Positions 28,811 to 33,964 of a stretch of 64,000 bases of DNA are shown one piece after another. The number at the start of each line of letters is the position of its first letter. Position 1 is the stretch's first letter. The DNA is from Glycomyces amatae. GTDB taxonomy: Bacteria > Actinomycetota > Actinomycetes > Mycobacteriales > Micromonosporaceae. Location of the stretch: positions 62,001 to 126,000 of the forward strand of contig NZ_JAJLQZ010000010.1 of the NCBI RefSeq assembly GCF_020991375.1, given 5' to 3'. A program made the position numbers and the translations under genes. The notes below the pieces were generated by a model, which had not been told where the DNA came from, made no database searches, and was given only the letters and a program-made list of their open reading frames with translations.

Positions 28811-29368
28811 GTGTCCTTCGGACGTCGCAACTTCAGAAGCGTCGACTCCTCGTCACCGCTGTCGCTCGCAGGATGGCTCTTCGCCGACCTGGCGCTGCTG
28901 CTGTTCATCATCACCATCGCCGTGGCCGCCGACTTCCCGCCCGTCGACGCCGAGGCCGCCGAGGAGACCACCGCCTCGCCCTCCCCGACCCCCTCGCCCA
29001 CGCCGGAGCCCTCGCCGACCGTCGAGCCCGGCGTCCAGTCCGAACCCCACGTCTTCTACGTCGACTCCGACGGCGCGGGGCTCATCGACGGCGACTCGGG
29101 CGCCGAGAAGGCCCTCGTCGCGGACCTCGAAGACGACTTCGCCGCCCTGGTCGCCGAGGGCTACACGGTCGGCTTCGCCCTGACCTTCGGCGGCGCGGTC
29201 GAGCCCGGCGTCGGCGGCGCGATGGCCGAGGCCGCCAACGAGGTCATGGTGGCCGCCTTCCCCGAGCTCTTCGGCGACGCGCCGACCCGCCACTTCTGGA
29301 CCTCGAGCGGCAAAGAGGACATCGACGTCGGCACGCTCCAGATCGAACTGTTCCTGCTCGTCGTCTGA
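28811..29368 (+). CDS. Single-pass membrane protein with small OmpA/MotB-like extracytoplasmic domain
   Basis: A 185-aa protein. One TM segment at residues 17-40 (LSLAGWLFADLALLLFIITI) carries an Asp (residue 26) near its cytoplasmic end, as in MotB/ZorB-type stators. A Ser/Pro/Thr-rich linker (about 52-75) follows. The 110-residue outer domain has a gamut of spaced small residues (AMAEAANEVMVAAFPELFG, then TRHFWTSSGKEDIDVG), reminiscent of a minimal OmpA-like fold. The MotB/ZorB resemblance is by layout and short motifs only; I cannot show homology. It is the first gene of the five-gene cassette 28811-33964, followed after 19 bases by a two-TM coiled-coil protein. Start: the only in-frame ATG at 28811. 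Confidence 0.65.
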   Translation: MSFGRRNFRSVDSSSPLSLAGWLFADLALLLFIITIAVAADFPPVDAEAAEETTASPSPTPSPTPEPSPTVEPGVQSEPHVFYVDSDGAGLIDGDSGAEKALVADLEDDFAALVAEGYTVGFALTFGGAVEPGVGGAMAEAANEVMVAAFPELFGDAPTRHFWTSSGKEDIDVGTLQIELFLLVV

Positions 29369-29387
29369 GCGTCCTGGAGGACGAACC

Positions 29388-30767
29388 ATGATCATGTTCC
29401 CGAACCAGCGCGTGGTCCCCGCCCCCGCGGCGGCGGCCCCGCCCATGCCGATGTCGAAGTACGGACCGGGCACCGACGCCGCCGACGCCACCGCGAAAGA
29501 GCTGGAGGACCTGGCCTCCCGCGAGGAGTTCGCCGGGCGCGCCAGGCAGCTGCGCTCCCTCGCGGGCGCCCTGCGCGACCCCGACGAGGCCCGCGGCTGG
29601 AGGGACATGCCCCTCCACGCCGTCTTCGCGAACCTCCCGCTCGACCCGGGCCCGCGCACCCGCGGCAGGGTGCTCCAGGGGCTCTACATCCTCCGCGCCG
29701 CCGTCGTCTTCCTGCCGCTGCTGGTGTCCTGGTGGGGCATCCACGGCGCCGTCGACGCCTACCGGCGACAGCTCGACGCCGACGCCGACCTGGGCGCCCA
29801 GAGCTTCTTCCGCGACTGGCTCAGCGGCTTCGACGGCGAACTCATGCTCAGCTTCGACCGGATGGCCTTCACCGTCGTCGTCTGCATCCTCGTGCTCATC
29901 GCCGTCTCGGCCGCGGTCGAATGGTGCCAGCGCCTCGAGCACGACCGCGACGCGCGGTCCGAAGCGGACCTGCGCGACCGCGTCGACGCCGCCCTCACCG
30001 AGGCCGGACTCCACTTGAACGCCGCCCCGCGCGCCACCGGCGAGGAGGCCGAGCGGCAGCTCGCCGAGATGGTCGCCCACTCCGCCGACCTCATCGAGGC
30101 CCTGGTCGACACCGTCCGCAGCGTCCAGGCCGACCTCGCCGCGCTCGCCGACTCGACCGGGGAGTTCCGGGCCGTCGTCGCCGGCCTCGACGGCGGCGCC
30201 CGCGAGATCGCCGCCGCCACGGACCGGCTCGGCGCCACCGTCGGCGCCGAGCAGTCCAAGGCCGCCCAGGTCTTCCAGGACGCCGGCGCCGCCGTCGCCC
30301 GCGACATCGCCGAGGTCGCCGCCGACCTGCGGACCGGCCTGGCCGACCAGCAGACCGAGGCGGCCGACGTGCTGCGCCGCGTCGGCGACCTCGTCATCGA
30401 GGCGGTCGGCCAGGGCGAGCGCCACCGCGACGCCGTCGGCCGGCTCCTGCGCGACAACCGCGAGGAGGACGCCCGCGCACTGGCCGAGGCGATCGCCGAG
30501 CGGCAGACCGAACTGGCCGACGAGCTGCGCCGCGCCGGCGAGGCGATCGCCGCGAAGCTCAGCGACACCGTCCAGGTCGACGTCGATCCCCGACTGAAGC
30601 ACCAGCTCGACGCCGTCGAGCACTCCAACCTGCAACTGCACGCCGCGCTCGACGGGCTCGCCCGGTCCGTCCAGTACCTCGGCGACCACATCGGGCAGTC
30701 CCCCGGGCTGCTCCCGGCGGTGGTCCCGCCCAAGCGCGGCTGGTTCGGCATCAAACGAGAGAGATGA
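29388..30767 (+). CDS. Two-TM membrane protein with long cytoplasmic coiled coil
   Basis: A 459-aa protein. An N-terminal segment of about 95 residues is followed by TM1 (about 97-120, with LYILRAAVVFLPLLVSWW), a 37-residue loop, and TM2 (about 158-178, with MAFTVVVCILVLIAVSAAV). About 250 residues of heptad-rich Ala/Glu/Asp/Arg coiled coil follow, to about residue 430. A basic tail ends WFGIKRER. The layout of few TMs plus a long cytoplasmic tail recalls ZorA and, in part, MotA/ExbB proteins or chemoreceptor-like signalling rods, but there is no diagnostic motif. It pairs with the preceding single-TM protein and ends 4 bases before the VWA gene. Likely role: membrane sensor or channel that passes a signal to the phospho-relay genes; inferred. 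Confidence 0.65.
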   Translation: MIMFPNQRVVPAPAAAAPPMPMSKYGPGTDAADATAKELEDLASREEFAGRARQLRSLAGALRDPDEARGWRDMPLHAVFANLPLDPGPRTRGRVLQGLYILRAAVVFLPLLVSWWGIHGAVDAYRRQLDADADLGAQSFFRDWLSGFDGELMLSFDRMAFTVVVCILVLIAVSAAVEWCQRLEHDRDARSEADLRDRVDAALTEAGLHLNAAPRATGEEAERQLAEMVAHSADLIEALVDTVRSVQADLAALADSTGEFRAVVAGLDGGAREIAAATDRLGATVGAEQSKAAQVFQDAGAAVARDIAEVAADLRTGLADQQTEAADVLRRVGDLVIEAVGQGERHRDAVGRLLRDNREEDARALAEAIAERQTELADELRRAGEAIAAKLSDTVQVDVDPRLKHQLDAVEHSNLQLHAALDGLARSVQYLGDHIGQSPGLLPAVVPPKRGWFGIKRER

Positions 30768-30771
30768 ACCC

Positions 30772-31431
30772 ATGGAACAAGTCCTTCCCTTCTACGTGGT
30801 GTGCGACGAGTCCTACTCGATGGCGAACGTCATCGACGACCTGAACAACGGACTGCGCGAACTCCACGCCGCCGTCGGCTCCGACCCGGTCGTGGCGGAC
30901 AAGACCCGCTTCGGCGTGATCGGCTTCTCCGACGACGCCGAGGTCCTCCTCGAACTGTCCGACCTCAGCGAGGTCACCCAGATGGCGGGCCTGGCCGTCA
31001 AGGGCGGCACCAACTTCGGCGCGGCCTTCAAACTGCTGCGCGACACGATCGACGCCGACGTGGCCCAGCTCAAGAACGACGGCTGCCGCGTCTACCGCCC
31101 CGCCGCGTTCTTCCTCTCCGACGGCCAGCCGAACTACGAATGGAAGGACGACTACGACCGGCTCACCGACCCCGCCTGGAAGCCCCGCCCCAACATCGTC
31201 GCGTTCGGCTTCGGCTCGGTCGACGAGGCCACCATCGCCTCCATCGGCACGTTCAAGTCCTTCATCGCGAACGGCACCCTGAGCCCCGGCAAGGCCCTCC
31301 ACGAGTTCGCCTCCGCGCTCACCAAGTCGATCGTCCAGTCCGGCACCAACATGACCGACGACGGCAAGGTGGAGCTCCAGGTGCCCAACGAAGTACCCGG
31401 TTTCACCAGGCTCGAAGCCGACGAGCTCTGA
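30772..31431 (+). CDS. TerY-type VWA domain protein
   Basis: A 219-aa von Willebrand factor A domain protein. The metal-ion-dependent adhesion site is complete: D12-E-S14-Y-S16 in FYVVCDESYSM, Thr 80 in KGGTNFGAAF, and Asp 117 in FFLSDGQPN. The protein is almost only the VWA fold, as in TerY. In TerY-P systems a VWA protein, a PP2C phosphatase and an atypical kinase form a phospho-signalling triad; the next two genes here supply the phosphatase and kinase. It starts 4 bases after the coiled-coil gene and has AGAGAG upstream of the ATG at 30772. Cytoplasmic; probably an adaptor whose binding depends on Mg2+ and phosphorylation. Confidence 0.88.
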   Translation: MEQVLPFYVVCDESYSMANVIDDLNNGLRELHAAVGSDPVVADKTRFGVIGFSDDAEVLLELSDLSEVTQMAGLAVKGGTNFGAAFKLLRDTIDADVAQLKNDGCRVYRPAAFFLSDGQPNYEWKDDYDRLTDPAWKPRPNIVAFGFGSVDEATIASIGTFKSFIANGTLSPGKALHEFASALTKSIVQSGTNMTDDGKVELQVPNEVPGFTRLEADEL

Positions 31432-31442
31432 GGGGGCCCGGC

Positions 31443-33053
31443 ATGACCGAGGGCAAACTGGACCTGGTCCCACCGCCGGCCCCGCCCGCCTGGGGCGACC
31501 GCGCCGAGCCGTGGGTGCCCGACACCGTCGGCCGCCGGGCCAAGGCCGCCGAGGCGGCCTGGAAGCTCGACCCCGACCCGGACTTCCCCGATACGGTCCT
31601 CGACCGGGGGCGCCTCGGCGACATCGAGGTGCTCGCCTGCGCCGCGCGGGGCTCCAAGCACCGCTTCGAGGGCACCGCCCGCCAGGACGCGGCGATCGCG
31701 CGCGCCGCGGCGGGCTCATGGGCGCTGGCGGCCGTCGCCGACGGCGTCGGCTCGGTGCCGGACAGCCAGCAGGCCTCCACGGCGGCCGTGCAATGGCTGC
31801 TCATCGAGCTCACCCGCCGCCTCGAAACCGGTGAGGCCGAACCCCACAAGATGGTGAGGGCGGCGTTCGGCGAGGTGAACCGCCGGCTCGTGAACCTCGG
31901 CGGCCCCAAGACCACGCTCACCGCCGCGGGCGTCGAGGCGCTCCCCGGGCCCGACGGCAGGTACCGGTCCTGGGTCGCCGCCGTCGGCGACAGCCCCGTG
32001 TACTTCCTCCGCGACGGCAGGCTCGTCGCCGTCTTCGACCTCGAACGCGAGGACGAGTTCGGCACCGCCACCGACGCGATGCCCGACCGGGACCTCCGGA
32101 ACCGCCTCCGCCTCCGGTCGGCGCCGATCCGACCCGGCGACGCCCTGGCCCTCGTCAGCGACGGCATCGGGGACCTGCTCGGCGCCAGATCCGAGGAGCC
32201 CAAGGCGTATTTCGCGGAGCGCTGGGGCGCCGCGCCGAACCCGGTGGACTTCATGCGCCACGTGCAGATCCGCTCGCGCGGCTTCGACGACGACCGGTCC
32301 GCGGCCGTGCTCTGGGCCGCCCCCGGCCCCACCGGGCAGGACGCGCCCGCACTGCGCGACGCCGCCAGGCCGTCGGCGGCCCACGACGTCGAGATCCGGG
32401 CGGGGCGGCTGCGGGGCCTGGAGGTCAGGGCCGTGTCGAGCCGCGGTCTGGAGGCCGCGCGCGAGGGCCGCCGCCGACGGGCCCGCACCGTCCTGTTCGA
32501 ACGCGCCGGGCGGCTGGTCGCGATCACGGCGGCGCCGACGGGCGTCGACGCGACCGCCGACCACGTCGGACCGTGGGTCGCGGCGGTGCGGGAGGCCGTC
32601 GAGGGCTTCCCGCCCGACCACCCCTCCTCGGAGTGGATGCCGAACCTCTGGAGCCTGGCGGTGCGCGCGTTCGACGCGACGCCCGGCGCCCGGCTCGACG
32701 AGGTCGCGACCGCCGTCCTGTGCGCCGAGCCCTCGCCGGGCGGCGCCGTGGACTACGAGCTCGCGCTCGCCGGCCCGGTGTCGGCGGCGATCTTCGGCGC
32801 CGGGATCCACCAGGAGCTGGGCACGATCCGCGCCCCCGAGCACCGGTGGGGCACCGGCCCGGGCGAGGTGCCCTGCCGCGTCCACGTCGACCGGCTCACC
32901 CCCGACCAGGGGCTGCTGCTGACCGTCGGGGTCGACCCGGCCCGGTTCGCGCGGCTGCCGGAGCGGCCGGGCCCGCTGGAGGCCTACGGGGTGCTGGAGG
33001 GCGAACGCGCCGAGGAGGACCAGCTGGCGCTGGTGCTGTGGGGTGAACGATGA
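31443..33053 (+). CDS. PP2C family serine/threonine phosphatase with a second, degenerate PP2C-like domain
   Basis: A 536-aa protein. The first PP2C domain (about residues 55-295) keeps the acidic metal ligands: Asp in RQDAA (82), ADGVGS (100), LVSDGIGD (240) and FDDDRSA (282-284). The second half (about 318-536) repeats the fold pattern, with LEVRAVSSRGLEAA, GRLVAITAAPTGVDATADHVG, LLLTVGVDPARF and EDQLALVLWGER. It lacks the Asp residues at the ADG and SDG positions, so it is probably a non-catalytic sensor. It starts 11 bases after the VWA gene (ATG at 31443) and overlaps the kinase by four bases. Presumed to dephosphorylate targets of the neighbouring kinase, perhaps the VWA protein. Confidence 0.85.
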   Translation: MTEGKLDLVPPPAPPAWGDRAEPWVPDTVGRRAKAAEAAWKLDPDPDFPDTVLDRGRLGDIEVLACAARGSKHRFEGTARQDAAIARAAAGSWALAAVADGVGSVPDSQQASTAAVQWLLIELTRRLETGEAEPHKMVRAAFGEVNRRLVNLGGPKTTLTAAGVEALPGPDGRYRSWVAAVGDSPVYFLRDGRLVAVFDLEREDEFGTATDAMPDRDLRNRLRLRSAPIRPGDALALVSDGIGDLLGARSEEPKAYFAERWGAAPNPVDFMRHVQIRSRGFDDDRSAAVLWAAPGPTGQDAPALRDAARPSAAHDVEIRAGRLRGLEVRAVSSRGLEAAREGRRRRARTVLFERAGRLVAITAAPTGVDATADHVGPWVAAVREAVEGFPPDHPSSEWMPNLWSLAVRAFDATPGARLDEVATAVLCAEPSPGGAVDYELALAGPVSAAIFGAGIHQELGTIRAPEHRWGTGPGEVPCRVHVDRLTPDQGLLLTVGVDPARFARLPERPGPLEAYGVLEGERAEEDQLALVLWGER

Positions 33054-33964
33054 GTCCGAACGACGAACCGACCAGCCTGGACGAACTGGGGGCGCTCACC
33101 AAGCTCGCCGACGGCGGCCAGGGCGCGGTCTACCGGGCCGCCCGGATGCCGGGGGAGCTGTTCAAGCGCTACCTCGACCCGTCGCAGCTCAACGTCGGCG
33201 AGCTCAAGCGCCTCATCCGCCGCATCCACGCCGACGAGCGGTCCGAACGCGTGCGGGAGACGATCCTGAACGGCACCGCCTGGCCGACCGGGGTCGTGCT
33301 CGAGGACGGCAGGCACGTCGGGATGATGATGCCCGAGGCCCCGCCCCGGTTCAGCACCTCCATCGGCGGCAAGTCCCGCCTCAAGGAGCTCCAGTTCCTG
33401 ATCTTCGAGCCCAAGCCGATGTGGAGAGAGGTCGGACTCCCCGACGCCGAGCAGCGCCGCGAGCTCGTGACGGGCTATGTGCGCCTGTTCAAGGCCCTGC
33501 ACGACGCCGACGTCGTCATCGGCGACGTCTCGCCGCGGAACCTGCTGTGGACGTTGGACCCCGCCCCGGCGGTCTACGCCATCGACTGCGACGGGTTCCG
33601 CGTCAACGGCTACCCCGCCGCGACGCCGCAGGCGCAGACCCCCGACTGGGTCGACCCGGACCAGGAGACCGGCCGCGCCTCGTTCGACAGCGACCGCTTC
33701 AAGCTCGCGCTCCTGGTGATCCGGGTGCTGCTCGTCGAACCGAAGGCCACCCCGCAGCAGGTCGCCGCCGACCCCCGGCGCCGGGGCGTGCTCGGGGACC
33801 GGCTCGCCGAACTGGTCCAGAAGACGGCGGGAGGCGAGCGGTGCCATGCCGTCGAGTGGCTGCGCGCGTTGGACGACCGGCCCACCCTCTACTTCGATCC
33901 GCCGCGCAGGCGCGAGCGGCCGGAGCCTCCTGAAGGCCCCGGCCGCCCTACGCTCCGTTTCTGA
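33050..33964 (+). CDS. Atypical serine/threonine kinase of the TerY-P (HSK-like) type
   Basis: A 304-aa kinase-fold protein. The nucleotide loop is LADGGQGAVYRA (residues 19-30), a candidate ATP lysine is in ELFKRYLDP (39), and the catalytic loop is VIGDVSPRNLLW (Asp 159, Asn 164). The metal-binding motif is AIDCDGFRV in place of DFG. The HRD-like His is replaced by Ile-Gly, as in other members of these short kinases. All residues needed for phosphotransfer seem to be present. The ATG overlaps the phosphatase stop (ATGA). The stop codon is followed directly, without a single base between, by the stop of the convergent pectate lyase gene. It completes the VWA-phosphatase-kinase triad. Confidence 0.82.
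   Translation: MSPNDEPTSLDELGALTKLADGGQGAVYRAARMPGELFKRYLDPSQLNVGELKRLIRRIHADERSERVRETILNGTAWPTGVVLEDGRHVGMMMPEAPPRFSTSIGGKSRLKELQFLIFEPKPMWREVGLPDAEQRRELVTGYVRLFKALHDADVVIGDVSPRNLLWTLDPAPAVYAIDCDGFRVNGYPAATPQAQTPDWVDPDQETGRASFDSDRFKLALLVIRVLLVEPKATPQQVAADPRRRGVLGDRLAELVQKTAGGERCHAVEWLRALDDRPTLYFDPPRRRERPEPPEGPGRPTLRF

Follow-up and report, generated by a model that had tools for sequence, protein, structure and literature searches.

A recurring actinobacterial gene unit sets a putative ExbD-like membrane pair beside a TerY-P-like VWA-phosphatase-kinase triad

Stand-alone TerY-P-like modules are reported to be antiphage in an excerpt of PMC11090510, and the actinobacterial GTPase-centred conflict systems of PMC7159879 include, in its section 29, a kinase, a PP2C, and a standalone vWA. 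In Zorya, the ZorB Asp packs against a ZorA Ser/Thr and the tail of type II ZorA starts near residue 100 (excerpt of PMC11890865), and the stator channel comprises two A-subunit helices and a B helix (excerpt of PMC12505986). Here, we describe a five-gene unit at positions 28811 to 33964 of a 64,000-nucleotide stretch (the window) of the 6.2-Mb Glycomyces amatae genome (contig NZ_JAJLQZ010000010.1, positions 62,001 to 126,000). A membrane pair, B and A, precedes a VWA protein (V), a PP2C phosphatase (P), and a kinase (K), and the unit most likely couples an ExbD-like membrane module that senses the envelope to a TerY-P-like switch.

All five genes lie on the + strand in the order B-A-V-P-K; the first four are separated by 19, 4, and 11 bases, and P and K overlap by 4 bases. 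These coordinates confirm the co-directional arrangement and spacing described in an earlier note, which had been made from the letters of the window and their translations. The features are as follows, in window coordinates.

28811-29368, + strand: gene B, 185 residues, GTG start; single membrane helix, Asp26, Pro-rich linker, and outer alpha/beta domain
28886-28888, + strand: codon of B Asp26
29388-30767, + strand: gene A, 459 residues; N-terminal region, two membrane helices, and long coil-like tail (predicted cytoplasmic)
29697-29921, + strand: membrane core of A, approximately residues 104-178; helix 1 with PLLxSWxG, loop FFxxWLxGFxG, helix 2
30772-31431, + strand: gene V, 219 residues; VWA protein with an intact metal ion-dependent adhesion site (MIDAS)
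31443-33053, + strand: gene P, 536 residues; PP2C domain with metal-site motifs and a C-terminal probable pseudo-phosphatase domain
32340-33050, + strand: second PP2C-like domain of P, metal-site motifs lost
33050-33964, + strand: gene K, 304 residues; protein kinase with catalytic residues kept and no membrane helix by hydropathy

The five genes are a real recurring unit with a patchy distribution. All five were found together, in two gene orders, at 12 loci (the window, L014, L015, L016, L017, L018, L034, L035, L036, L037, L159, and L161), which answers positively the question raised in the earlier note of whether the membrane genes co-occur with the triad elsewhere. Four of these units are in Glycomyces (including the window), one is in another genus of the family, one in Pedococcus, five in Streptomyces-type genomes, and one in a further family. 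The first five recovered beyond the window were L014 (G. arizonensis), L015 (G. buryatensis), L018 (a third Glycomyces), L017 (the other genus of the family), and L016 (Pedococcus), the last having the order A-B-V-P-K rather than B-A-V-P-K. Because the same five genes also lie together outside Glycomyces, their association is not due to chance.

These loci came from several searches. Among relatives, B matched 7 of 41 genomes and A matched 5 of 61, and a V search of genome contigs gave 3 loci. With a Streptomyces B as the query, 8 of 150 Streptomyces-type genomes matched (the genus reached from genome G083 was taken as Streptomyces because a protein from Streptomyces has matches of up to 87% in it), and four of these matches (L034 to L037) were full A-B-V-P-K units; the phosphatase gene of L035 escaped the search and was identified by reading the locus. 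A V-only search of 394 genomes of the class yielded 11 V loci besides that of the window, and two of them, L159 (another family) and L161 (Streptomyces), have all five genes. Five of the full units were thus found by V searches blind to A/B (3 of 3 loci in one search and 2 of 11 in the other). At the level of the phylum, a B-profile search that scored 8 candidates per genome matched 6 of 396 genomes: the window's own and five near an E value of 1e-6. A and B each have one match in the window genome, and they adjoin in every B-holding locus read except for one false hit; the B match at L041 was rejected as false. The pair is also present without the triad (L019) or with no recognised partner (L040). 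Plasmids that were searched held no B relative and one V relative at 39%. Weak B matches were seen in two genomes of the search of relatives (G012 and G030). The two genes upstream of the pair in L019 resemble a P-loop/GAP1-like pair by motif reading alone, with no Pfam match, and L160:8871-9524 holds a V relative of 51% identity in a long open frame, with A, B, and P not detected alongside.

Kinases of the A/B units differ from those of sister triads in their relation to the membrane. By hydropathy scan, the kinase lacked a membrane helix outside the kinase domain in 12 of 12 A/B units (10/10 and 2/2; the one segment flagged in the L037 kinase lies inside the kinase domain), whereas a membrane helix followed the kinase domain in 13 of 13 scorable sister triads without A/B (8/8 and 5/5). 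Sister triads were taken from a V search of the 150 Streptomyces-type genomes (14 loci in 11 genomes, 10 of them without A/B) and from the class sample, and were scorable when V had a readable kinase on its own strand no more than 2 kb away. The count leaves aside L119 (no kinase found), L122 (a fragment), L163 (a contig end), L160 (V without P, and a weak kinase match on the other strand), and L168 (two helix-bearing kinases, on the opposite strand), along with an extra helix-bearing kinase at L034:4570-6837 and a weak second match in L115. Also outside it are L169, with a helix-free kinase 3.5 kb beyond P, and the distant triad of L038, whose kinase has no helix and where A/B lie on the other strand; these two could be counted differently. 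In a tree of 25 V proteins, built without the later class-sample V loci and the short second V of L118, those of A/B units grouped to one side of a single branch, with one change and none of 500 shuffles giving so low a number. Since kinases are helix-free with A/B and helix-bearing without it, the pair likely takes the place of a membrane input of the kinase itself. On a plain reading, the switch can receive its membrane input in either of two forms, as part of the kinase or as the A/B pair. In the Streptomyces-type triads L115 to L118 and L120, the VWA genes are in tandem and the kinases have a long tail as well as a membrane helix, and by reading some of these triads have a cyclase-like or CRP-like gene nearby.

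The membrane pair is an uncharacterised family in which B has a strong motor-like feature and A is an unproven partner. An AlphaFold2 model of B (mean predicted local distance difference test [pLDDT] score of 86.5) contains a helix at residues 16-40 and, after a Pro-rich linker, an outer domain of approximately 110 residues; together with Asp26 in the helix, this matches the single-helix protein with a membrane Asp and a small outer domain that the earlier note had described. The outer domain has the order beta-alpha-beta-alpha-beta-beta (block mean pLDDT of 97-99 over residues 81-160), which in the model would suit an OmpA-like fold. A profile search with B scored 7,997 candidates, of which 196 proteins passed the threshold and 120 were listed. 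In a 61-row alignment (A4), made of 55 of the 120 listed proteins and six rows from the window and loci, the membrane-helix carboxylate was acidic in 60 of 60 readable rows (47 Asp, 13 Glu, and 1 gap), and the motif GWLFA directly before it was nearly invariant. The B helix matched the ExbD/TolR profile at an E value of 5e-4 over 17 columns, placing Asp26 on ExbD Asp25; reversed alignments gave E values of 0.2 or worse, and 0 of 200 column shuffles reached the score. As a profile match, this is suggestive. None of the 61 B relatives matched MotB, ExbD, OmpA, or ZorB models (ZorB at E values up to 1), and one weakly matched a peptidoglycan-binding lipoprotein family (PA1041, E value of 0.018). 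Among the matches listed, names were actinobacterial plus one Chloroflexaceae, and most were "hypothetical" or unnamed; with P0114 named as from a Chloroflexaceae bacterium, the B family extends beyond the actinobacteria. "Biopolymer transporter," "Motility protein B-like N-terminal domain," and "LytR/CpsA/Psr regulator C-terminal" each occurred as a single automatic UniRef name. Three relatives (P0078, P0089, and P0114) carry long Pro-Thr repeat stretches.

Protein A has hydrophobic segments at approximately residues 104-122 and 159-178 followed by a long coil-like region, in agreement with the two-helix, coiled-coil protein of the earlier note; the coil was assigned by reading and hydropathy. 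An alignment of 27 rows shows P110, W115, F140, and W144 without variation, and in 26 of the rows position 114 holds Ser or Thr. By analogy, the two helices and conserved Ser/Thr of A would be the least that a stator-like channel requires. In the window A, PADLOC ZorA matches are confined to residues 181-433, which is the coil-like tail (ZorA2, 2.9e-6). Homology to ZorA was rejected and the match read as coil similarity, because this model has matches in 17 of 296 genomes (that of the window among them), with all matches listed at its C-terminal positions 171-410 alone. No MotA_ExbB or MotB_plug match was found in the window genome; control searches were positive in 8 of 14 and 4 of 14 genomes, respectively.

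The products of the triad retain motifs of their families. V matches the VWA Pfam model at 4.5e-8 and contains the MIDAS elements DESYS, Thr, and Asp, so the MIDAS is intact, as had been noted. Of ten units examined, all had DxSxS and the later Asp in V, and the MIDAS Thr had its usual setting in six and a GGxTS setting in four Streptomyces units. The tandem PP2C architecture noted earlier for P holds in that both halves are PP2C-like, but only the first (PP2C_2, 6.4e-22) has metal-site motifs. These motifs are lost in the second half (hhalign, 96.9%, E value of 1.9e-10), which is therefore a probable pseudo-phosphatase. Shorter P proteins of 322-437 residues occur in Pedococcus and in four Streptomyces units. 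In K, residues K39, D159, N164, D179, and D181 are invariant in 6 of 6 aligned sequences. K has no match to the Pfam kinase model, matches the kinase part of lanthionine synthetases (5e-8), and has weak PADLOC matches to the antiphage kinases MkoA and PD-T4-6 (4e-5 to 4e-4). By reading, its 304-residue sequence contains no ribbon Cys pairs, and no zinc-ribbon or OB-fold Pfam domain was found in it.

In Glycomyces, a single site either carries the whole unit or lacks it, since in other genomes the genes flanking the unit adjoin without it. A Gfo/Idh gene that precedes the unit is kept in 22 of 22 Glycomyces genomes and is followed by the unit in 4. In 13 of the 18 unit-free genomes, a convergent pectate lyase match follows Gfo/Idh within 1.5 kb (mostly within about 100 bases, and at about 0.4 kb in one); in the remaining 5, pectate lyase was not or only partly seen within that distance. 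The flanks of the unit in the window hold sugar-acid, pectate lyase, and esterase genes.

Neighbours elsewhere are of other kinds. McrB-like AAA and McrC genes lie within approximately 1 kb of two Streptomyces-type units, on opposite sides (L034:13233-16707 and L035:11658-15000); in L035, a UvrD helicase gene adjoins K and an Eco57I-type methylase gene lies further away. The Pedococcus unit (L016) has a TIR gene 3 kb away. These McrBC and TIR neighbours outside Glycomyces are indirect evidence for a defence role, and the placement near defence genes considered in the earlier note holds for these three units but not for the Glycomyces units, which sit among pectin genes. No defence-type neighbour was seen by reading around L036 and L037, where no family scan was made. 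The pair itself recurs in further settings: in L038 (7005-15785), B and A share a strand with a GrpE-like gene and two genes of Hsp70 type, of which Pfam confirmed one, and a separate VWA-PP2C-kinase triad is on the opposite strand; in L039 (8925-15940), B and A lie within 3 kb of DO-GTPase1 and DO-GTPase2 matches. A probable fibronectin type III-repeat protein was seen by reading in the A/B neighbourhood of L038, with no Pfam match, and a phage-type integrase gene (L017:6622-7674) lies about 0.6 kb from the L017 unit.

We consider the chances about even that the membrane pair senses the state of the envelope and sets the kinase/phosphatase switch tied to the VWA protein, probably to raise an alarm against phages or envelope stress. 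A and B would form one membrane complex, with the outer domain of B touching the wall or a ligand. The B carboxylate and the Ser/Thr of A helix 1 could couple ion flow, or helix rotation or packing, to the coil of A, which would hand the signal to V and K or present them. K and P would set the phosphorylation state of targets, with P resetting the signal. Such a unit would join two themes of bacterial immunity, the stator-like membrane complexes of Zorya and the VWA-PP2C-kinase switches of TerY-P. It also offers a testable answer to how the switch receives its input, through a kinase membrane helix or a separate B/A module, and the B family provides a marker for locating more such systems.

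Several results weigh against the envelope-sensing reading. The membrane core of A reached a probability of <1% against MotA and ExbB/TolQ profiles in hhalign and, in a PDB sequence search, gave one chance hit at an E value of 1; MotA_ExbB was absent from the full Pfam lists of four A members and from the 25 of 63 families listed for 17 members. The match of B to ExbD covers 17 columns of a profile made from two sequences, profile comparison showed no similarity of the B outer domain to MotB or ExbD, and kinship of B with MotB was rejected (6-15% in profile comparison, with 4 of 200 shuffles scoring as high). Among the kinases, the counts are phylogenetically non-independent, the A/B branch of the V tree has modest support (63/76), and at the sister locus L169, outside the count, a kinase 3.5 kb beyond P has no membrane helix. 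The PADLOC matches of K may reflect general kinase similarity, Pfam and PADLOC scans recognised no effector in the unit, and 4 of 4 Glycomyces units are located in the pectin locus.

Other explanations account for parts of these data. If A/B were instead the effector, the kinase/phosphatase switch would open a gated ion leak on infection, and the cell would depolarise and die. The conserved membrane carboxylate and the want of any other recognised effector in the unit would both suit such a leak; still, the sister triads without A/B carry a kinase-fused membrane helix in its place, which suits an input or an anchor, and the pair also occurs near Hsp70 and GTPase genes, so that we regard this explanation as unlikely. 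Chemoreceptors have two helices around a short outer loop and then a long coil, a topology that A shares. A could thus be a chemoreceptor-like transducer beside a separate wall- or ligand-binding anchor, B, with no ion movement, and the lack of stator homology in A and the automatic UniRef name of the relative P0019, which begins "Methyl-accepting chemot," agree with this. No chemoreceptor domain appears, however, in the Pfam lists described above for A (four full lists, and 25 of 63 families for 17 members), and an acidic residue in the sole membrane helix of B would be difficult to account for unless it serves ions or a polar contact between helices; we find this account improbable to a similar degree. 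A role in sensing or regulating polysaccharide (pectin) rather than in conflict is suggested by all four Glycomyces units, which lie between Gfo/Idh and pectate lyases or similar genes (checked by Pfam in the window). Yet Gfo/Idh is kept without the unit in 18 of 22 Glycomyces genomes, pectate lyase following in 13 of these, and no pectin gene adjoins a unit outside Glycomyces among the genes read, which makes this role very improbable.

A bolder form of the envelope-sensing reading, which we put forward tentatively and think more likely wrong than right, is that A/B is a minimal stator, with five two-helix A subunits around an ExbD-like B dimer. As an exchangeable envelope-sensing front end, it would switch the kinase by ion-driven turning of the coil, plug into Hsp70 and DO-GTPase conflict systems, and have replaced the kinase membrane receptor in triads. 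To our knowledge, its membrane part would be smaller than that of any motor. If so, ion-motive force and envelope damage would be read out as protein phosphorylation.

Neither the membrane pair nor the five-gene set was described in the open-licence literature searched, a scope that leaves out subscription papers. The earlier note's view that no such system is described thus stands for the five-gene set, but actinobacterial kinase-PP2C-vWA triads are published (PMC7159879, section 29). The third theme of the GAP1-N2 GTPase-centric systems in that paper comprises an actinobacterial kinase, a PP2C, and a standalone vWA, and, as in those systems, DO-GTPases (L039) and Hsp70/GrpE-like genes (L038) are found in the vicinity of A/B. 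In contrast, nine proteins flanking the unit in the window had no GTPase family match (one matched nothing), and DO-GTPases were found only near L039. The words "MotA" and "TolQ" are absent from the main text of PMC7159879, and its section 29 has no such membrane pair.

Compared with TerY-P, the unit has VWA, PP2C, and kinase genes side by side, the first assigned at the VWA level (without a TerY subtype) and the second as a PP2C phosphatase. It differs in that K lacks the C-terminal zinc ribbon or OB-fold of the TerY-P kinase and a separate two-gene membrane pair precedes the triad; the TerY-P triad proposed in the earlier note is thus better called TerY-P-like. That note also proposed a ZorAB/MotAB-like pair, which fits B insofar as its carboxylate aligns with ExbD Asp25, but not the A core, which has no MotA/ExbB homology, nor B as matched against ZorB, MotB, and ExbD models. 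Relative to ExbBD, TolQR, and MotAB, B has the membrane carboxylate, with its helix in register with ExbD Asp25, whereas in A, which has two membrane helices, no homology to MotA_ExbB could be detected. Unlike in Zorya, the partners are a kinase switch, with no PADLOC match to ZorC/D, ZorE, or ZorF/G in V, P, or K; the A membrane core has no ZorA profile match and B no ZorB match. "ZorAB-like" is therefore an analogy, because the A membrane core has no detectable MotA, ExbB, TolQ, or ZorA homology. What the pair shares with Zorya, as excerpted from PMC11890865, is its design: a single-helix B with a membrane Asp (residue 21 or 24 in ZorB and 26 here) and an outer domain, and an A in which a membrane helix bears a conserved Ser/Thr and the C-terminal tail is long.

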